Assembly: GCF_007197995.1 (NCBI RefSeq)
Contig: NZ_VKKH01000002.1
Span: forward strand, 186,001-250,000
DNA from: Aliiglaciecola sp. M165
GTDB taxonomy: Bacteria; Pseudomonadota; Gammaproteobacteria; Enterobacterales; Alteromonadaceae
Length of the DNA stretch: 64,000 nucleotides
Reading direction: 5' to 3'
This document shows positions 42,589 through 53,078 of the stretch, piece after piece (position 1 is the first letter of the stretch; every line of letters begins with the position of its first letter). A program made the translations under genes and the position numbers. The notes under the pieces were generated by a model that saw only the letters and a program-made list of their open reading frames with translations, was not told where the DNA came from and did no database searches.

Positions 42589-43314
42589 TTACTCTGTGCG
42601 AGTAACGCTAATACTGATCACTGGGTTGTCAAACTTATGTTGAGAATCCAATATCGAAGTGGGTAAATTATCCGAAGACGTTACCACACCTGGATGCGCA
42701 GCCACAAAGTCCACATCATCCCTAGCCATAGCGAATCCTGTTCCACCATCAGCAGGCCCTGGTATGGTGCCAGCTGCTTCAGAATTTTGTTCGGTACCCG
42801 AATCATAAGCCCTAGCGCGGGTTGACCAGGTGTCTCCAACTTCTAGTTGACCGAGATCCCAAGCATTAAGACCGGTAAAGGCGTCATTTGTATTCACCAA
42901 CATCGTTGCGACAGACAAACGAGCGTTTGTAACGTCCTGAATGGTCACACTAATCGTCTCGCTAGCACCTGGGCCTATTGGCGCCGCTCCAGAAGCGGAC
43001 GCTTCAACAACAGACAAACCAAGAAGTGCTGAGTTGTCGCCGCCTTCTGCCATGGTTTCCAATTCAACCGATGCTGATTCACCAATCATCCACAAGTTAC
43101 CTTGTTGATGAAGGATCACCGCAACGGGTGACAAAGGTTGAGCATTAGTTAGATTTGTAACCGTCACTTCATAACTCACATCCACTGGAGGTGGAGGTGG
43201 CGGCGGGGTTGGTGGAGTAGGAAGATCATTGTTGTCGCTGCCACAGGCAGTTAACAACAAAGTCAGAGCACTTATTGTTGCTAGGTGCAAAGGTTTTAAA
43301 TTTGATTTAAGCAT
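42589..43314 (-). CDS. Spondin-domain lipoprotein
   Basis: A 241-residue exported protein. The signal peptide ends in the lipobox LLLTA-C (Cys24), followed by a proline-rich linker (PTPPTPPPPPPP) and a Spondin_N domain. That domain starts YEVTVTNLTNAQPLSPVAVILH and contains LWMIGESASVELETMAEGGD and ARAYDSGTEQNSE. Bacterial spondin-domain proteins are secreted and of unknown function, possibly adhesive or calcium-binding. It is a paralogue of the next upstream gene, 12 bases away. Confidence 0.87.
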   Translation of the reverse strand: MLKSNLKPLHLATISALTLLLTACGSDNNDLPTPPTPPPPPPPVDVSYEVTVTNLTNAQPLSPVAVILHQQGNLWMIGESASVELETMAEGGDNSALLGLSVVEASASGAAPIGPGASETISVTIQDVTNARLSVATMLVNTNDAFTGLNAWDLGQLEVGDTWSTRARAYDSGTEQNSEAAGTIPGPADGGTGFAMARDDVDFVAAHPGVVTSSDNLPTSILDSQHKFDNPVISISVTRTE

Positions 43315-43326
43315 GCTAACAGTCTC

Positions 43327-44010
43327 CTAGTTTACGGTTACTGTTACTTTCGCCACAGGGTTCAACCAACGATGTACGCTGTTTACCATGTCACTTGTAC
43401 CCGCCGCGGCATCTGCATCACCAATATTACCGCGGTGAATATGCACGGTCGCATTAGTTTCAGTAGTTGTCACACCTGAACCACCTGCCCCCAACACTGG
43501 ATCTAATGGCGGAGGAACTGGCATGCTCGTACGCAACTCATCATTAGCTTCTGTACCAGCATCATAGGCATTAAGATAAATAGTATAAGTGCCTGCTTCG
43601 GTAGGGATAGTCCAATTATCGAGTCCCACAAATCCATCGTTTGAAGGCAGTATCATGCCGACAATCGATAACACCGTATTGGTATCATCATTTGTAAGCA
43701 TCGCGGTTGTAGAAGCCGAAGGTGCAAGTAGCCCACCAGCGGGGTTAGCAACCGCGTTTGCGTTAATGGAAGTCCCTATGGTTATCAATCCATCCAACGC
43801 ACCGCCCTCGGCCATTGCTTCAATTTCAGCTGAAGCGGCCTCACCCACACCAAATAAACTCGCATCAGGAACGTGCGCTGCAACGAGAAGAGGCGTGAAA
43901 TAAATGCCTTGAGTAAGATTCTGAATTTCAATTGTCAGATCTGCAGCAGAAGCCTGGCCAGAAGCGGCAGCTAACACACTTGCCGAGACGATTTTAGATA
44001 GTTTTTTCAT
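43327..44010 (-). CDS. Spondin-domain secreted protein
   Basis: A 227-residue protein with a classical signal peptide (about 1-22, cut after ASA) and a Spondin_N domain: LTIEIQNLTQGIYFTPLLVAAH, then SLFGVGEAASAEIEAMAEGGA, YLNAYDAGTEANDE, and the end VHRWLNPVAKVTVTVN. Unlike its downstream paralogue it has no lipobox, so it should be periplasmic or released. GCGAGGA is the ribosome binding site. First gene of the unit with the lipoprotein and the response regulator. Confidence 0.87.
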   Translation of the reverse strand: MKKLSKIVSASVLAAASGQASAADLTIEIQNLTQGIYFTPLLVAAHVPDASLFGVGEAASAEIEAMAEGGALDGLITIGTSINANAVANPAGGLLAPSASTTAMLTNDDTNTVLSIVGMILPSNDGFVGLDNWTIPTEAGTYTIYLNAYDAGTEANDELRTSMPVPPPLDPVLGAGGSGVTTTETNATVHIHRGNIGDADAAAGTSDMVNSVHRWLNPVAKVTVTVN

Positions 44011-44401: not shown

Positions 44402-44821
44402 TTACCGATACAACATTTCTTTTCTAGTAGGAGCAAGAACTTTGAGTAATTTATTTTGAGATCTATGAGGTATGTCAGCGGCATCCATTGCACGAATAAG
44501 CAAATCAACCGTGCGATTAAAATCAGCCTCAGTAATATTCATTCCAGCATGAACGTGTTCCATTGTGTCACCCGAATAAACACATCCTCCTCCCGTCAGT
44601 GCACAAATTTGTTCACTCAATTTCTCAACAAATCTGTCTATATCAGAACCTTCGAAATAGGGCAGAATGGTCGGATCTGTTTCAATTTGAATCACGAAAT
44701 TTTCAACAATTTGATTGACTTTTTCAGCCCCTCCTAATTCCTCATAAAGAGATTGTTGCTGAGTTGCGCAACCACTGATAAACAAGGTAGTTGCCATAAA
44801 CACGAAAAAAGTCCTAAACAT
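44402..44821 (-). CDS. Lipoprotein group-1 truncated haemoglobin
   Basis: A 139-residue globin of the short 2-over-2 type with an exported, lipidated N-terminus: signal peptide and lipobox LFISG-C (about Cys17). The globin part begins LYEELGGAEKVNQIVENF, has the proximal haem His in MEHVHAGMNI, and ends with LLKVLAPTRKEM. Most truncated globins are cytoplasmic, so an envelope-anchored one is unusual. It may bind O2 or NO in the periplasm. ATG 44821 is chosen over GTG 44833; either nearly abuts the DUF3034 gene. Last gene of the seven-gene operon. Confidence 0.85.
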   Translation of the reverse strand: MFRTFFVFMATTLFISGCATQQQSLYEELGGAEKVNQIVENFVIQIETDPTILPYFEGSDIDRFVEKLSEQICALTGGGCVYSGDTMEHVHAGMNITEADFNRTVDLLIRAMDAADIPHRSQNKLLKVLAPTRKEMLYR

Positions 44822-44826
44822 GATTT

Positions 44827-45672
44827 TCACCACAATTGGCCGTTAACCGATAGATATAAACCTGATTGATCGGGCGCTCCGGCAATAGATCCCAGATTTG
44901 CGTAAGCAAGAGTAAAATTAAAGTTCTTACTTGGTATATAGCTAATGAAAAAGTCCATCCAATCATCTTCACCCAATCCTAAGTTATCAGGTTTTTGTCT
45001 GTACTCAGCGCCAACAGCGAGATGTCTTGATAAAAGTATTCCAAAACTCGCTTCAAGCATAAGCTCATAATCTTGCTGAACTGGACCTCCAAATCCTAAT
45101 AAACCTAACTCGTTGGCCTTTGTGGCTCTTGCAGTGAGATTCCAAACGGCATTGAAACCGGCAATAGCACCAAGATGTACCTTAGTTGCAGCGATATAAA
45201 AATCAGTGCCACTTGAGCTTGATCCTGCTCCTAATGCACTAGCAATCGTGCCATCTTCGAGTTTTTTGTGTTGAATTCCCAGACTAATCTGAGGTAATTG
45301 AGAGAAAACTACATCTCCATAAAGCTTGAATTTTGCTCCGACAACATTCTGCTTTATCTCTCCCCCTAAACTTTTTAAATCAAATCGCTGGTGAGCAATG
45401 CTAAGTTCAACCCTGTCATATAAAGAAAATGCCCCAGCTAAAACGTTTAACCGGTAATCATCAACATCTACTTGAGTTGTCGCAACTGAAAATGAGGTTT
45501 GATCTTGACTGTCATACCCTGCAAGTGTTGCCCAAGGAACAATACCACCGCCACCACTGCCCTCTACTTGCATCAGGCCAGCGGTACCTATTAATTTTCC
45601 TTCGGCAGCAAACAGGTCAAATGACAAAAGCAAAAACGTGACCAGGCTGATGACACATTTAATTTGTCTCAT
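44827..45672 (-). CDS. DUF3034 family outer-membrane-type protein
   Basis: A 281-residue exported protein with a signal peptide (about 1-22, ending LFA-A) and alternating hydrophobic strands ending in an aromatic residue (VNGQLW), as in outer-membrane beta-barrels. The family start GKLIGTAGLMQVEGSGGGGIVPWATLAGY is clear. Its role is unknown; in many proteobacteria it lies next to a GGDEF/EAL gene and a cupredoxin-like gene, as here. Its ATG overlaps the stop of the EAL gene by four bases. Confidence 0.83.
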   Translation of the reverse strand: MRQIKCVISLVTFLLLSFDLFAAEGKLIGTAGLMQVEGSGGGGIVPWATLAGYDSQDQTSFSVATTQVDVDDYRLNVLAGAFSLYDRVELSIAHQRFDLKSLGGEIKQNVVGAKFKLYGDVVFSQLPQISLGIQHKKLEDGTIASALGAGSSSSGTDFYIAATKVHLGAIAGFNAVWNLTARATKANELGLLGFGGPVQQDYELMLEASFGILLSRHLAVGAEYRQKPDNLGLGEDDWMDFFISYIPSKNFNFTLAYANLGSIAGAPDQSGLYLSVNGQLW

Positions 45673-47993
45673 ATTTCAAACCAATTTTTATCTTTGTTTT
45701 CTTTGCACCACGGCAAAAGCTTATCCAACGGCATTGGACGCGCAACATGATAACCTTGCACATAGTCACACTTCCAAGTTTTGAGCATCATTAACGCCGA
45801 TTGATTCTCTACCCCTTCGGCGATAATACCTAAATCAAAATTATGCGCCAAATCTATGATAGTTTTAACAATTTGCTGATCACTATCATTGCTATCCAAA
45901 GCTAATACAAAACTCTTGTCAATCTTAAGGTGCGAAACCGGTAAGGATTTAAGATAAGCCAAAGATGAATAACCGGTGCCAAAGTCATCAATAGCCAGTG
46001 TAAACTTTGCATCTCTGAATTTTTGCAATACTTCCACAGCTTTTTGTGGATCCGAGACAAGATCACTCTCTGTAATTTCAAATGACAGCTGAGCGGCATT
46101 GACACCAATATCAACCAAATATTTGTTGATAATCGACAACAAATTTTCATTCAATATATCTTTAGCTGACAAATTTATCGCTATACATATATCTAACCCA
46201 TTATCTTGAAGACGTTTGGCATCAAATATGGTGTTGCGAATGACGTAATCGGTGACACTTCCAATAAGCCCGGCTTGTTCTGCAATCAAAATAAATTCAT
46301 CGGGAGGAACAAAACCCAGTTTACTGCTGTGCCAACGAATTAATGCTTCTACATGCGAAATATCACCGATTTCCAAGTCAAGCTTGGGTTGATACGCCAA
46401 GCTTAACTCTCCGTTGTTCTCAACCAGGGCTTTCTTGAGTTCAGATATGATTGATAGCCGTCTCGTATACCTGGCCTCAAATTCTTGTTGATATTTAGCC
46501 AACCTTCCTCGAGTTTGGCGCGCTTCATCCAAACAAATATTTAACCGTTTTAATAGGCTTTCGGTATCGCTGCAATCTTGGGGGCAGTTTAAGACAGCTA
46601 GACTAATTTTAATATTCATCACCACGTCATCGACATGAATTGGGCGCTCAAGCTCTGTTTGAATATCCCGTAATGTAGAAAGTGAAACTGGTTCTTTGGG
46701 TAGCCATATAAATTCCCCGCCGTTGAGGCGAGCGGCTTCTCCACCTAACGTTTTAAAACGTTTAGCCACTTCAATTAAACACAGGTCGCCATTGCCATAA
46801 CCAAAAACATCATTAACGCCTCGAAATCCGAGAATATTGGCGCCCACCGCCTGAAAACGATGATTTTGCGAAAACCGTTCGTCAATAAGCTCACTAATAC
46901 GATAGCGATTTTGTAAGTCGGTCAGTAGATCATGACGAGCTTGATAACGGATGCGTTTTTCCCTTTCCTGCACATTGTTGTGCATAGATTCGAAGGATTC
47001 AGCAAGCTCCTTGACCTCAGTCGTTTTGGACTTCACGACGATTTCCTTATCATAACTACCACGGCTGATTGTATTGGCAATGGCTGCCAGTTTTTTCAAA
47101 GGGTCAGCTAGATTTTTTGAAAAAACAGCACCTACTAAAATAGATAAAATGACACTTAAAAATGCAATCAAAGTAATTTTTATTTGTAGTTGGTTAAAGT
47201 CGCCCAGAATCGAATTGATGTCTTCGAAAAGCACAACCTCAACGACTTCTTCGCCATATTTGTTTAATAAAAATGACCGAGAAATAAATCCTTTTTGAGT
47301 AAAAAGTGACAATTGTAACCACGAAACGTCTTCATTTAGGTCGATTGCATTTTGCTGTTCCAGGGGATTCAAGGACGATGCGGAAAAAACAAGTTGGTTG
47401 CCGACAGACGCTTTTACAGTGGTATCGAGAAGCGTGATATTTTTACTGCGCTCAAGCAAGTCTCTGTTCATTTCGAAGCCAATGACAGCAATAGTCGGTG
47501 CACCGGGCACGTCAACGGCGACTAATATTGTTTGATAAAGCTTACCGTTCAACAAGATAATCTCACTTGCTCCTCCCTCAAGCAAAGTTCGCTCGATCAA
47601 GGCTTGATGGGGAAAGGATTGTGCTGGTGATAAATCTTCTGTTGTAGAATTTAAAACCAAGCCATCTGGGGCAAGCAAGATCATTAAATCTGCGTCGATA
47701 CGGTCTGACTGGTTTAACAACGCGCTGTCAATCGTCGGTGCGTCTTGACTGCCTATTGCCGCTTTAAACCCAAAGTCAGCCGTGAGAACTTCTGCTGAGT
47801 TAAACAGCTCGGCCTCTCGGGAAGCCAATACTTGAATAAATACCGACTGTGCAATCCTTAAGGTTTGTTCTAGTTGCTTTTTCGCATGGTTGGTGGTTGA
47901 CGTCCACACGTTCAAAATGATTACGGAAGAGCAAAGTAAAATCAGGCTCGTTGTTAGCCAAAAAATATTTTTATTTAATGTGCGTACCGACAA
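45669..47993 (-). CDS. Membrane sensor with degenerate GGDEF and intact EAL domain
   Basis: A 774-residue protein. Two transmembrane helices (about 12-32 and 275-295) frame a periplasmic sensor domain of about 240 residues. A HAMP linker follows, then a GGDEF domain with the altered motif RLNGGEF near residue 424, where GGDEF is usual, so cyclase activity is unlikely. The EAL domain (about 520-765) has EALIRW near 548, NLSAKD, ITESDL, DDFGTGYSS, LKIDKSF and EGVE intact, so it should hydrolyse c-di-GMP. It lies three bases after the cupredoxin gene and overlaps DUF3034. Confidence 0.92.
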   Translation of the reverse strand: MSVRTLNKNIFWLTTSLILLCSSVIILNVWTSTTNHAKKQLEQTLRIAQSVFIQVLASREAELFNSAEVLTADFGFKAAIGSQDAPTIDSALLNQSDRIDADLMILLAPDGLVLNSTTEDLSPAQSFPHQALIERTLLEGGASEIILLNGKLYQTILVAVDVPGAPTIAVIGFEMNRDLLERSKNITLLDTTVKASVGNQLVFSASSLNPLEQQNAIDLNEDVSWLQLSLFTQKGFISRSFLLNKYGEEVVEVVLFEDINSILGDFNQLQIKITLIAFLSVILSILVGAVFSKNLADPLKKLAAIANTISRGSYDKEIVVKSKTTEVKELAESFESMHNNVQEREKRIRYQARHDLLTDLQNRYRISELIDERFSQNHRFQAVGANILGFRGVNDVFGYGNGDLCLIEVAKRFKTLGGEAARLNGGEFIWLPKEPVSLSTLRDIQTELERPIHVDDVVMNIKISLAVLNCPQDCSDTESLLKRLNICLDEARQTRGRLAKYQQEFEARYTRRLSIISELKKALVENNGELSLAYQPKLDLEIGDISHVEALIRWHSSKLGFVPPDEFILIAEQAGLIGSVTDYVIRNTIFDAKRLQDNGLDICIAINLSAKDILNENLLSIINKYLVDIGVNAAQLSFEITESDLVSDPQKAVEVLQKFRDAKFTLAIDDFGTGYSSLAYLKSLPVSHLKIDKSFVLALDSNDSDQQIVKTIIDLAHNFDLGIIAEGVENQSALMMLKTWKCDYVQGYHVARPMPLDKLLPWCKENKDKNWFEI

Positions 47994-47996
47994 TTT

Positions 47997-48692
47997 TTAA
48001 CCTTTACTGCCAAATTTTCGCGAGCCAAAGGACCGACTCTTAGCCTCGACACGACGAACTAACTCTACGGTCACCACAGCTTCACTATCAACCCAGCTTA
48101 CTGGCACCGAAACCCTTTTGGTTTGTTCAAAAGACAGGTCTTCATGCCAAATTTGAATGGTCTTCGGCAATGTCTCATCAAACATAATTTGCCCTGACGC
48201 ATTAGTCACTTTTGCGATTTCATTGTCCGTAACGTAAATATAACCCACCATACCATCATGAATGTTGCATCCCAATACACCAATACCGGCTTTATCATAG
48301 AGAACCGGGGGCTCATCTGATCCTTTATAGAGTTTTATTTCAAAGGGCTTGATGCTAGAAAAGCTATAAACATGGTGGCGAATGTCGTCACTATTTGGAA
48401 ACGAGACATACTGTCCTTTGTCAACAACGAGTACCCTTGGAAGAAACTGTTTATTGACCTGATCCATGATGGCAATTCCCTTGCTCTTGGGTAAAGCATC
48501 GTTCGACATTGGAAAGCTGACAACAGCGTTTTCAACAGGTTTACCATGTTGATCGACAACAGTTAGTGATTGTGCGAACGCTGGGCAGCACAAGAACAAT
48601 ATCAGCAAAGAACTTACAAGCTTTCGCACTAAATATTGCAAACCAAAGACATTCTTTACAATAAAATAACGACGCACTACGGGATATCTCAA
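47997..48692 (-). CDS. Periplasmic cupredoxin-like protein
   Basis: A 231-residue exported protein of the methylamine-utilisation/plastocyanin-like group. A hydrophobic signal segment spans about residues 22-41. Likely copper ligands are His106/His107 in DIRHHVYSF, then Cys142, His145 and Met148 in GCNIHDGMVGYIYV, the normal type-1 copper order. A C-terminal carboxypeptidase-regulatory-like strand region follows. Start is TTG 48692 with AGGAG five bases upstream. It lies directly before the EAL sensor gene. Either an electron carrier or a copper/redox input for the sensor. Confidence 0.82.
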   Translation of the reverse strand: MRYPVVRRYFIVKNVFGLQYLVRKLVSSLLILFLCCPAFAQSLTVVDQHGKPVENAVVSFPMSNDALPKSKGIAIMDQVNKQFLPRVLVVDKGQYVSFPNSDDIRHHVYSFSSIKPFEIKLYKGSDEPPVLYDKAGIGVLGCNIHDGMVGYIYVTDNEIAKVTNASGQIMFDETLPKTIQIWHEDLSFEQTKRVSVPVSWVDSEAVVTVELVRRVEAKSRSFGSRKFGSKG

Positions 48693-48700
48693 AACTTCTC

Positions 48701-49144
48701 CTAGTTGCCTTTACCCAATAGGTACTCATGTTCTGGATCAACAACAAATTTGCCATTCATAGCTTCACGGCCAAGTAACATTAAATAAGTCATCTCTGAT
48801 CGGTCGGTTAAGGTTATGTGAATGTCCCAAGTCATGCCCGCTATACTTATTGGCGTTTTAATAACATAACGACGCTCACGAGTTGCAGTCGAGCTTTTTA
48901 CTTTTTTTACCGCTTCGACTTTGGCGTCACGACGGACAATTTCAGAAACATCGTGTATATCTGGATGAATGTCAAAACTCACCCAGGCAGCCCCATCTTT
49001 TTCATATTCTTCTATGTTGTCTACATGCAACGAAGAGGTAGTGGCTCCGGTGTCTACGCGTATGTTTAAGTTCTCAATCTCCAAGTCCGGCAAATCGCAA
49101 AGCTCCAAAGCTCCCACAACCGGTTTATCCTCAAATTTAATCAT
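48701..49144 (-). CDS. rimB: RimB-like retropepsin-fold (putative zinc) protease
   Basis: A 147-residue protein of the DUF785 family. The aspartic-protease motif VDTGATTSSLHV (about residues 30-41) and LMLLGREAMNG near the C-terminus are characteristic. In Pseudomonas the RimB protein of this family acts with RimK and RimA to trim or control poly-glutamate tails on ribosomal protein S6. Here it is separated from rimK by an M14-family gene, all within one operon. Symbol given by family and context. Confidence 0.8.
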   Translation of the reverse strand: MIKFEDKPVVGALELCDLPDLEIENLNIRVDTGATTSSLHVDNIEEYEKDGAAWVSFDIHPDIHDVSEIVRRDAKVEAVKKVKSSTATRERRYVIKTPISIAGMTWDIHITLTDRSEMTYLMLLGREAMNGKFVVDPEHEYLLGKGN

Positions 49145-49149
49145 CGAAT

Positions 49150-50187
49150 TTACTCAGGTTTTACAGTGGCGTTGTTTTCTTCCGAAACCAGATTGTCTTG
49201 AAGCAATTCAACATGCTCCGCGACTGAATTAGGCGTCTTAAAATAAGCAAGGTGGTACATTGCCTCACCTTCTTGTGCAAGAGGAATATTTTGTTTGCCG
49301 ATCACCACACTTTCCGCTGGGCAAAGGACTTTGCCCAGCTCCGTTCCATAGGGGTCTGAAATAGTGGCCAACACATCGCCTTTCATTACATGATCACCCA
49401 ATTGCGCTTGATGATGCACAAAGCCGCTCTCGTGGGCGCGGATCCAACCACTTTGATTGGCAATAAATGGTTCGATGGCATGCCCCTTTTTGCTATTTCG
49501 CTTGTTCAACATACCGACTTCGCGCATGACGTTAATGATGCCTTTGAGGCCAGCGCGAATTGAAAATTCGTCATAACGCAGTGCCTGACCCGCTTCGTAT
49601 AAAATAACTTTTACACCCAAGTCCGCTGCAGCCTGGCGTAACGAACCATCGCGAATGTCCGAGTTTAAGATCACGGGTAATCCAAACGCTTTACACAATG
49701 AAAGAGTTTGTTCATCGTTTAGATTGGCGCGCAATTGTGGCAAATTACTGCGGTGAATTGCACCTGTGTGCAAATCAATTCCGACATCACATTTGGCAAC
49801 GATTTCGTTTAAAAAAGAATGCGCCAACCTACCTGCTAGCGACCCTTTTTTGCTGCCTGGGAAGCTACGATTTAGGTCTCTGCGATCGGGAAGATAACGA
49901 CTTTGATTGAGCACACCATAAACGTTAACCATAGGCACCGCAATCAAGGTTCCGCGCAAGTTTTTAATAGATTTGCTATTGAGTAAGCGCCCGACTATCT
50001 CTATCCCGTTTAACTCATCTCCGTGAATGGCTGCACTTACAAATAGCGTAGGGCCAGGCCGTTTACCTCTTTGCACATGCACAGGAATTGACATGTGCGT
50101 GTCTGTGTACAGCGGAGGCATGGCAATTTCTAAGCGTTTGGTCTCACCAGGTTTAATACTTTCGCCTGCGATAATTAATTCTTCCAT
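49150..50187 (-). CDS. Succinylglutamate desuccinylase/aspartoacylase-family (M14-like) protein
   Basis: A 345-residue zinc carboxypeptidase-like enzyme. The zinc ligands are visible: HGDELNGIE (His and Glu, about residue 55) and DLHTGAIHRSNLPQ (His, about 140). A C-terminal barrel (about 260-330, HHQAQLGDHVMKGDVLATI) resembles a biotinyl-lipoyl-like domain, as in other AstE/AspA relatives. It starts one base inside the rimK stop (TAATG), so the two are translated together. The linkage suggests an amidase acting on glutamate or a glutamate-tailed substrate, but this is an inference. Confidence 0.85.
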   Translation of the reverse strand: MEELIIAGESIKPGETKRLEIAMPPLYTDTHMSIPVHVQRGKRPGPTLFVSAAIHGDELNGIEIVGRLLNSKSIKNLRGTLIAVPMVNVYGVLNQSRYLPDRRDLNRSFPGSKKGSLAGRLAHSFLNEIVAKCDVGIDLHTGAIHRSNLPQLRANLNDEQTLSLCKAFGLPVILNSDIRDGSLRQAAADLGVKVILYEAGQALRYDEFSIRAGLKGIINVMREVGMLNKRNSKKGHAIEPFIANQSGWIRAHESGFVHHQAQLGDHVMKGDVLATISDPYGTELGKVLCPAESVVIGKQNIPLAQEGEAMYHLAYFKTPNSVAEHVELLQDNLVSEENNATVKPE

Positions 50188-51092
50188 TAGCCTTTACCCT
50201 TGGTACGCGTTCGATTCGGCTTAGCATTTTTCTCAATAAATTCGAATATCATGCCCGCGACGTCCTTTCCTGTTGCAGTTTCGATTCCTTCCAGCCCAGG
50301 AGACGAATTAACTTCCATTACCATCGGGCCATTTTTTGAGCGTAACAAATCAACACCACACATATTCAGCCCCATGGTTTTTGCTGCATCGACGGCTGTT
50401 TTTCGTTCTTGCGGAGAGAGTCTTACAATTTTTGCTACGCCACCGCGATGCAGATTAGACCTGAACTCTCCCTCTGCGGCTTGTCGTTTCATTGCAGCAA
50501 TAACTTTGCCTCCAACAACTAGACAACGAATATCCGCACCACCAGCCTCTTCAATAAATTCCTGCACTAGTATGCTGGCATTCAACCCCATAAAGGCTTC
50601 AATAATTGCCTCAGCGGCTTTTTGAGTATCAGCTAATACCACACCTATCCCCTGTGTCCCCTCCAACAATTTAATGACAACGGGTGCCCCGCCAACATTT
50701 TTAATCAAGTCGTCTATTCTGTCAGGATGGTTTGCAAAACCTGTCCTTGGCATACCAATCCCTTTTCTCGACAAAAGCTGCAAAGAGCGCAATTTGTCAC
50801 GAGAGCGACTGATGGCAACAGACTCATTAATGGAAAAAGTCCCGGTCATTTCAAATTGCCTGACAACTGAAGTGCCATAAAATGTAACCGACGCTCCAAT
50901 ACGCGGGATCACTGCGTCATATTTAGGAAGCGCTTTACCTTTGTAGCGTACAGAGGGTCGACTGCTTGTAATGTCCATGTAACAATGCATGGTATCGACA
51001 ACATCGACGGTATGCCCTCTCGCCATTCCGGCCTCTACCAGACGTTTTGTTGAATATAAATTGGGGTTTCTTGACAATATAGCTATACGCAT
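50187..51092 (-). CDS. rimK: Ribosomal protein S6 glutamate ligase (ATP-grasp)
   Basis: A 301-residue ATP-grasp ligase that adds glutamates to the C-terminus of S6. ATG 51092 gives [21 protein letters not shown], matching the 300-residue E. coli protein; the frame is open 15 codons further. The ATP-grasp domain shows [36 protein letters not shown] and [14 protein letters not shown] (metal site). First gene of a seven-gene operon that also encodes a RimB-like protein and an EAL phosphodiesterase. It is divergent from an MscS gene 95 bases away. Confidence 0.95.
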
Positions 51093-51187: not shown

Positions 51188-52015
51188 ATGATCGAACTGA
51201 TCTATCAACATCGCTTGATCGCGACCCTTTCGATTTCGACGTTGATTATCTCGTTCAAATACTTGCTGGTAACGTTAATCCGGTCACGAGCTAAAAAGAA
51301 AAGGCAGGACAAACGTTACTTAGTTAGCAATGTAAAAAATTTGCTGAATTTTATATTGATCGTGCTTCTGCTAAGCATCTGGATAAACGAAATACAAAAT
51401 TTTGCGTTATCTATTGCCGCTTTTGCTGTAGCAATCGTGCTGGCCACCAGAGAATTCATACAATGCATTATTGGATTTTTTTATTTGATGTCGAGTCGAC
51501 CTTTTAGAATAGGAGACTGGATTCAAGTGGATGGCTTTGCAGGCGAAGTATCGGCGACAGACTGGATTAAAACAACACTTTTGGAGGTCGATATTTCCCG
51601 CTACGAGTACACGGGAAAAACCTTGTTTTTACCTAACAATAAATTAATAAACAGTCCAATTAAAAATCTTAATTTTCTTAAGCGCTACGTTACTCATCAC
51701 TTCAGTATTACTCGAGATGAAGACGTCAATCCGTATCTGATTATAGAAAAGCTTAGGCAAACGGCAAAAGAGCATTGTGCCGACTTTTATGACGTCGCAA
51801 CCCGTTACAATCAGATCATAGAACGTAGGTTGGACGTGAAAATTTCTGGGCCGGAACCTCATATTGAAGTAACAACCAGTGAAATTGGTCACACCGTAAT
51901 TAAATGCACAATTTTTTGTCCAACGGAACGCGCCATTGAAATTGAGCAGAGCATTATGGCGGCTTTTATGGAACTGTGGTTCACGGAGTTCAATAAACCT
52001 TCCCGCGTCGATTAG
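51188..52015 (+). CDS. Short MscS-family mechanosensitive channel
   Basis: A 275-residue membrane protein with three hydrophobic segments (about 10-30, 50-70, 75-105). The pore-helix and beta-domain boundary reads SSRPFRIGDWIQVDGFAGEVSATDWIKTTLLE, followed by FLPNNKLINSPIKNLNF, as in MscS relatives. The C-terminal part is less conserved. It is divergent from rimK and followed by a second MscS gene after a 196-base gap holding a long hairpin. Confidence 0.83.
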   Translation: MIELIYQHRLIATLSISTLIISFKYLLVTLIRSRAKKKRQDKRYLVSNVKNLLNFILIVLLLSIWINEIQNFALSIAAFAVAIVLATREFIQCIIGFFYLMSSRPFRIGDWIQVDGFAGEVSATDWIKTTLLEVDISRYEYTGKTLFLPNNKLINSPIKNLNFLKRYVTHHFSITRDEDVNPYLIIEKLRQTAKEHCADFYDVATRYNQIIERRLDVKISGPEPHIEVTTSEIGHTVIKCTIFCPTERAIEIEQSIMAAFMELWFTEFNKPSRVD

Positions 52016-52076
52016 AGTAAATACGAAGTAAAACCTTTTATGAAAAACAACCGTTTTAATCTTCAAGTAAGTTATT

Positions 52077-52157
52077 ATACCAATCCACACAAAGAAGTGA
52101 TCAGTCAGAATGCGCCCAGCGGTTTTTGACTGATCACTTCTTTGTGTGGATTGGTAT
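52077..52157. repeat. 31-bp perfect inverted repeat (large hairpin)
   Basis: Arms 52077-52107 and 52127-52157 are exact reverse complements over 31 bases, with a 19-base loop. It lies between two mscS genes. There is no T-tract, so it may be a small palindromic mobile repeat that also limits read-through. I find no second copy in this window. Confidence 0.88.
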
Positions 52158-52211
52158 TATATTGCAAACAAAAGAGCTTACGCCTGTTGTAACTTTTAAC
52201 TGGGATTGAAT

Positions 52212-53078
52212 ATGGAATCTTTGTGGACGTTTTTAAATTCGGACGCGTTCTCTATTGCTGGCCAAGCGTTCACGTATGGTGAATTAGTTTATGTTCCGAT
52301 CATTGTTCTTTTTGGGATATGGCTGATCCGCAAACTTGCGAATATTGTAACCACCAAACTTATTTCGCAAGGTACCAATCCAGATGTTGTGCATCTGATA
52401 AAGCGCGTCTTATACATTCTTGGTTTAGTCGTTCTCATCATTACTACCCTTGACTTTCTTAGTGTGCCGATTACCGCTTTCGCGTTTCTTTCTGGTGCAA
52501 TTGCGATTGGTTTTGGCTTTGGCGCGCAAAACATCATCAATAACTTTATTAGTGGCTGGATTTTGATGTGGGAGCGACCTATACGTATTGGGGATTTTCT
52601 CGAGGTTGATGGGGCCAGAGGTCGGGTTGAAGCCATCAATACTCGCTCCACCCGGATCCGGCGGGTAGATGGCGTGCATATGCTAATTCCCAATAGCAAG
52701 CTATTAGAGAACACAGTGGTCAATTGGACGTTGGTAGACCGTCTAACCCGCACATCAGTGCGAGTTGGTGTCGCCTATGGCTCTGATTGTAAAAAGGTTG
52801 CCGAGCTGATTTACCAAGCAGTTAAAGAACAAGAGGAGGTGTTGCCCGACCCCGATCCTTTAGTAGTATTTGACGATTTTGGCGACAATGCTCTGATGTT
52901 CGAGGTTTTTTTCTGGATTAACGCCACCATTGAACGAGATCTGCGTAAAATACGCAGCAATATCCGTTTTAGAGTTGACGAATTATTCGCCCAAGATAGT
53001 GTAGTGATCGCCTTCCCACAGCGCGATGTACATATTGATGGCGCGATTACACTTAACCGCAAAGCGCCAAATGGGTAA
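52212..53078 (+). CDS. MscS-family mechanosensitive ion channel
   Basis: A 288-residue channel subunit with three transmembrane segments in the first 120 residues. The pore helix is LSGAIAIGFGFGAQNIINNFISGWI and the beta domain starts RPIRIGDFLEVDGARGRVEAINTRSTRI, then LIPNSKLLENTVVNW. This is close to the YggB/YbdG-like core. ATG 52212 is chosen over a TTG six bases upstream. It is five bases before the CorA-type gene, so the two are probably cotranscribed. Confidence 0.9.
   Translation: MESLWTFLNSDAFSIAGQAFTYGELVYVPIIVLFGIWLIRKLANIVTTKLISQGTNPDVVHLIKRVLYILGLVVLIITTLDFLSVPITAFAFLSGAIAIGFGFGAQNIINNFISGWILMWERPIRIGDFLEVDGARGRVEAINTRSTRIRRVDGVHMLIPNSKLLENTVVNWTLVDRLTRTSVRVGVAYGSDCKKVAELIYQAVKEQEEVLPDPDPLVVFDDFGDNALMFEVFFWINATIERDLRKIRSNIRFRVDELFAQDSVVIAFPQRDVHIDGAITLNRKAPNG

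Follow-up and report, generated by a model that had tools for sequence, protein, structure and literature searches.

The window analyzed here is a stretch of 64,000 nucleotides from Aliiglaciecola sp. M165 (contig NZ_VKKH01000002.1 of a 4.6-Mb assembly in 29 contigs). It carries, all on the minus strand between positions 44402 and 51092, seven genes in the order rimK, M14, rimB-like, cupredoxin, GGDEF/EAL, DUF3034 and globin. Reading of the window sequence confirms the genes, their order, the single strand and the tight spacing as the original prediction had described them. Pfam and NCBIfam back the identities of six of the seven genes, all but the fourth, the cupredoxin. We consider it probable that the stretch consists of two modules that touch: the rim triad (module 1, the first three genes) and an independent envelope quartet (module 2, the other four). 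The quartet is the new part, a little-studied cell-envelope set.

Module 1 starts with rimK (50187..51092), which encodes the S6 glutamate ligase. The protein scores 458.1 bits against NF007764, above the cut-off of 331, and its relatives align from residue 1 of the ATG start. Ribosomal protein S6 of this genome ends in ESQDQE, that is, with the terminal glutamate that a RimK substrate needs, the tailing itself being predicted. The second gene (49150..50187) encodes an AstE/AspA-like zinc hydrolase of the M14 type (PF24827, 148.6 bits), and the third (48701..49144) a RimB-like protease of the Zn_protease/retropepsin type (PF05618, 117.8 bits). The RimB-like protein lies below the NCBI cut-off for RimB (NF052261, 111 bits vs 200), with this model at the top of four Rim/Rlo protease models; the DTG motif is kept in all 23 of its fetched relatives.

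The company kept by these genes was followed through a first set of 40 genomes, that of the window (G000) included, of which 15 carry DUF3034 and 28 carry an M14 relative (E up to 1e-20). Of 39 genomes, 31 have RimK (E up to 1e-60); an M14 relative is found in 28 of these 31 compared with none of the eight rimK-less genomes (hypergeometric p 2.7e-6, kinship not corrected). The two genes adjoin in 27 of the 28 genomes holding both, the exception (G032) being a 29% match; in one genome (G039) the M14 gene contains a stop codon. The M14 motifs HG[DN]E, DLHTG and EAG are kept in 25/25 fetched relatives, and a rimB relative is present in 23 of the 25 fetched loci having rimK and M14. The counts in genomes with and without rimK bear out the place given earlier to the M14 gene among the rim genes: rimK-M14-rimB is a conserved triad, with M14 as its regular third member. 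Module 1 is a set for the glutamate tailing of ribosomal protein S6, in which the M14 enzyme probably acts on glutamate tails or poly-glutamate, trimming or recycling them. Such a near-constant partner makes one specific gene testable as a missing editor of S6 glutamate tails. Nothing on rimK together with succinylglutamate desuccinylase was found in the literature searched; the 2025 RimB study, in the part available, describes rimB and rimK arrangements and has no carboxypeptidase match in its main text (PMC11957791). Another copy of rimK (81% identity to that of the window) lies at G000:C26:569224-570126, with no M14 or rimB in the fetched stretch. Downstream of this copy are a gene for an MS_channel_1st_1 protein, not of the PF00924 family, and two MgtE-family genes.

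Module 2 begins with the cupredoxin gene (47997..48692), predicted to encode a periplasmic blue-copper protein with an N-terminal leader. Its TTG start at 48692 is preceded by AGGAG; a GTG start at 48629 would leave a wider gap behind rimB and was set aside for that reason. The protein has no cupredoxin match in Pfam or NCBIfam. Its predicted structure matches plastocyanin, and the four positions His-Cys-His-Met, which we take to be type 1 copper ligands, are invariant in 75/75 cupredoxins. (Invariance counts use only proteins over the score floor, 74 cupredoxins, 68 EAL proteins and 79 globins, plus that of the window in each case.) Because of this fold and these invariant ligands, the fourth gene is assigned to a putative type 1 blue copper protein, with copper binding predicted. 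Matches to plastocyanin, amicyanin and the cupredoxin domains of NirK hardly cover the window protein outside residues ~71-156; unlike these, its gene sits with an enzyme of cyclic diguanosine monophosphate (c-di-GMP) metabolism. That enzyme (45669..47993) is a membrane sensor with a HAMP domain, a degenerate GGDEF domain (53.3 bits; motif RLNGGEF) and an EAL domain with intact motif (PF00563, 225.7 bits). Nine of the ten EAL positions examined, presumably metal and catalytic residues, are identical in 69/69 proteins, and the tenth, the A of EAL, is A in 49, S in 15 and T in 5. The protein is thus a predicted c-di-GMP phosphodiesterase with its catalytic positions intact.

The DUF3034 protein (44827..45672; 347.3 bits) is predicted to be a 12-stranded outer-membrane beta-barrel, as its model has 12 long strands and matches solved outer-membrane barrels. 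The channels KdgM, NanC and FapF match it at only 7 to 14% identity, and it differs from them in having a conserved segment, GGGIVPWA, close to the N-terminus, where the model has low confidence. This gives a structural reading to a family hardly mentioned in the literature searched. The last gene (44402..44833) encodes a globin with a lipoprotein signal (PF01152, Bac_globin, 62.8 bits), whose profile matches HbN chains at E 5e-25. Together with the heme histidine, which is invariant in 80/80 globins, the match places it among group 1 truncated hemoglobins. Unlike HbN, the quartet globins mostly carry an export or lipoprotein leader, and unlike the three HbN chains aligned they have two invariant cysteines (77 and 84, again 80/80). 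Three assignments made from the bare sequence are upheld: the EAL domain, whose catalytic positions are intact, the copper-type protein, and the truncated globin with a lipoprotein signal, which falls in group 1.

The distribution of the quartet argues for its independence. GTDB genomes were scanned with a DUF3034 alignment, and the best 80 of at least 581 confirmed matches, a choice favoring near relatives, were kept as named loci (L numbers); all counts of named loci refer to these 80. Seventeen of them are shorter than 20 kb, so that a distant rimK could be missed, and five (L088, L089, L091, L094 and L126) duplicate records of the first set (G006, G001, G012, G023 and G022, respectively), so the two sets overlap. 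In profile searches of open frames, cupredoxin-EAL-DUF3034-globin occurs in strict order in 63 of the 80 loci; the other arrangements are cupredoxin-DUF3034-globin (7), DUF3034-globin (6), EAL-DUF3034-globin (3) and cupredoxin-EAL-DUF3034 (1). Among these 17 non-strict loci, L097, L160 and L134 look whole (they failed the overlap rule or have the EAL gene in two frames), L102, L107, L129 and L166 are cut off by the edge of the contig, and in L123 and L148 the EAL gene and DUF3034 are separated by other genes. Genera represented among the named loci include Paraglaciecola, Alteromonas, Pseudoalteromonas, Colwellia, Shewanella, Pseudidiomarina, Methylophaga, Thalassolituus, Teredinibacter, Hahella, Marinomonas and Pseudoxanthomonas; two further loci come from metagenome bins that bear the titles Sphingopyxis and Acidobacteria and may be misassigned. 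All three rim genes are found in two of the loci (L088 and L089), rimB alone in one (L142) and none in 77. The quartet is a separate module, found alone in many marine bacteria. Gene-name and family-name searches found nothing on it as a unit in the literature searched. In four Methylophaga records (L127, L129, L131 and L133) another EAL-matching gene follows the globin directly, on the opposite strand.

The original prediction had tied the seven genes into one system, with the EAL protein in the part of RimA. In its full form, the membrane EAL protein would replace RimA and convey copper, oxygen (O2) or nitric oxide (NO) input to RimK and S6 tailing. The precedent is the rimABK operon of Pseudomonas fluorescens, which, according to the available parts of two studies (PMC7343187, PMC11957791), shares with the window the clustering of rimK with a gene for a RimB-family protease and the presence of an EAL enzyme near the rim genes; in Pseudomonas, RimK is under the control of RimA, a c-di-GMP phosphodiesterase (PMC7343187). 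Also in favor of one system are the tight junctions within the window, the EAL gene kept beside rimB in three genomes of this genus (G003, G005 and G008) whose locus lacks its partners, and the nearness of both blocks in Colwellia-type genomes, all detailed below. The likeness to Pseudomonas fluorescens ends at several points: the window has the M14 zinc enzyme as a regular extra member, its RimB-like protein falls below the RimB cut-off, and its EAL protein is a 774-amino-acid membrane protein with degenerate GGDEF, the RimA-like gene lying elsewhere. Against the RimA model NF052265 (cut-off 430) the window protein reaches 75.7-78.3 bits, 17th of the 22 matches in its own genome. The top match, at 334.6 bits also under the cut-off, is a stand-alone gene of 246 amino acids at G000:C1:227629-228342. 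Because this gene is so much closer to RimA (334.6 vs 75.7 bits), the window EAL protein is, by its sequence family, not RimA, and we do not take it as the leading candidate for a RimA replacement. Of the 31 rimK genomes, 12 have a RimA-like gene (E up to 1e-60), and in not one of these 12 is it within 20 kb of rimK, so that RimA is not tied to the rim locus here either; an operon of the RimABK kind, with a RimA-type EAL gene next to rimB and rimK, is not what the window holds. Finally, 78 of the 80 named quartet loci have no rimK in the stretch fetched. The original prediction is thus upheld only in part: a single seven-gene system is not supported, and we regard it as quite improbable.

The two-module reading was further examined through the linkage of the blocks in related genomes. 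Among the 15 DUF3034 genomes of the first set, DUF3034 and M14 lie within 5 kb of each other in four, all of this genus (G000, G001, G006 and G007). The two are ~11 kb apart in G015 and unlinked in nine others, and M14 is missing in G036. Blocks in direct contact were found in this genus alone, in 4/9 of its genomes. Another genome of the genus (G002) has the triad and no quartet gene in the fetched region, and the ninth (G004), 59% complete, lacks both DUF3034 and M14. Of 248 genomes of the order in a wider draw, 22 carry DUF3034, that of the window among them. All 21 others have RimK (E up to 1e-60), which lies within 20 kb of DUF3034 in none of them; eight hold both genes on one contig, far apart, and 13 on different contigs, for which nearness is not wholly excluded (three of the 21, G010, G028 and G036, belong also to the first set). 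Close contact of the two blocks is thus not general. The original prediction had named separate promoters together with unlinked blocks in related genomes as the finding that would overturn it; outside this genus and the Colwellia type the blocks are unlinked.

Several observations weigh against a division into two modules, or against the quartet as one of them. The junctions of the window, from -4 to +8 bases, are compatible with a single transcript: TAATG at rimK/M14 (overlap of 1), 5 bases at M14/rimB-like, 8 bases at rimB-like/cupredoxin, 3 bases at cupredoxin/EAL, ATGA at EAL/DUF3034 (overlap of 4), and at DUF3034/globin 5 bases to the ATG at 44821, or an overlap if the GTG at 44833 is used. 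One transcript across all seven genes is plausible from this spacing; promoter-like sites (15; shuffles 16.5, sd 3.0) and terminator-like sites (8; shuffles 6.9, sd 2.7) show no excess over shuffles. In three sister genomes that have the unit in full, the gap from rimB to cupredoxin is likewise short, at 36, 98 and 46 bases. In G003, G005 and G008, of which the last two are nearly identical, the EAL gene is the only quartet gene that follows rimK-M14-rimB; DUF3034 is missing from the three genomes altogether, the cupredoxin and globin having been looked for at the locus only. Colwellia-type genomes hold both modules in the same direction and ~7 kb apart, and this layout argues that the neighborhood is older than the present genus. 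In one Colwellia locus (L142) ~6.5 kb separate the end of rimB from the cupredoxin gene, which runs in the same direction; signaling and MscS genes lie in this interval, and G015 shares the layout, at ~7.6 kb. The rimK gene of two Colwellia loci (L142 and L138) lies just beyond the fetched stretch, as judged from contig number and coordinates. The main counter-evidence is that the EAL gene is separable from the other three: it stands alone at the locus in G003, G005 and G008, and in six Marinomonas loci and one Paraglaciecola locus (L110-L113, L116, L117 and L108) cupredoxin-DUF3034-globin stands without an adjoining EAL gene. This weakens the case for an obligate four-part machine. The seven EAL-less genomes searched (L110 left out) contain relatives of the sensor part (22-31% identity), so that some of these may have kept the sensor elsewhere; that of L115 (31%) is as close as the true quartet EAL protein of L120 (30%). 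A replacement of the EAL gene by another sensor was considered for the Marinomonas loci and not adopted: upstream in L110, L111 and L113 are, by eye, a histidine kinase, a solute-binding protein and an AraC-type regulator. The cupredoxin of L110 is spread over two frames.

For the quartet itself, the best-supported mechanism is that c-di-GMP breakdown receives a redox or gas input from the envelope and, in most of the hosts examined, does so independently of RimK. The observations behind it are gene order, conservation, invariant ligand and catalytic positions and predicted folds; the sites of the mature proteins, the signal and the direction in which it passes are inferences. The DUF3034 protein would form an outer-membrane channel, the globin would be a heme lipoprotein, and the cupredoxin would serve as a periplasmic electron carrier or copper sensor. 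Between them, these three may report redox, O2/NO or copper state to the inner-membrane sensor at its periplasmic domain, and the sensor would then degrade c-di-GMP; only the cofactors point to the nature of the signal (copper, O2, NO or redox state). Any tie to RimK in the window would depend on shared expression or on the pool of c-di-GMP and would need no obligate complex. YfiBNR and Lap are envelope-controlled c-di-GMP systems in which periplasmic or outer-membrane partners are encoded beside an inner-membrane c-di-GMP protein. The partners in the quartet are, unlike those of YfiBNR or Lap, a blue-copper protein, a heme globin and a DUF3034 barrel. More specifically, and only tentatively, the quartet could be an undescribed relay across the envelope, dedicated to this task, in which the channel and the heme lipoprotein set the redox state of the blue-copper protein and this protein docks on, and switches, the c-di-GMP phosphodiesterase; the copper protein would then be the messenger between the outer membrane and a second-messenger enzyme. 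If the proposed working of the quartet is right, many marine gammaproteobacteria would read envelope copper, oxygen or nitric oxide straight into a c-di-GMP change, with the blue-copper protein as relay. Alternatively, the quartet may mainly handle metal or redox chemistry (copper or NO chemistry, or periplasmic electron transfer), with c-di-GMP as a secondary output or input. We hold this to be unlikely: the EAL gene stands between cupredoxin and DUF3034 in 63 of the 80 loci, nine of its ten examined positions are invariant, and the copper protein PcoB is just one barrel among the many structure matches listed for DUF3034.

Two further features of the neighborhood were noted. The window rimK and the RimA-like gene both adjoin genes for MscS-type channels (51188-53078 of the window and G000:C1:226578-228342), an observation that also covers L059, L075, L077, L078, L081 and L142. 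With a profile built from three proteins, an MscS gene is found within 5 kb of rimK in 16/26 fetched rimK loci vs 12/88 DUF3034 loci without rimK (14/26 vs 10/88 at 60 bits or more). Outside this genus the frequency near rimK is 9/18, or 7/18 at 60 bits, and the enrichment holds with the genus counted once (Fisher p 5.6e-4, or 3.5e-3 at 60 bits). A rim-specific association is weakened by the control loci, several of whose matches are the same channel type beside the Paraglaciecola quartet and which include repeated records (L057 = L091; L064 = L094). No link between rimK and mechanosensitive (MscS) channels was evident by title in the literature searched. At the other end of the stretch, two spondin-domain genes (42589-44010) come after the globin gene, and they occupy the same place in five of the seven fetched genomes of the genus.

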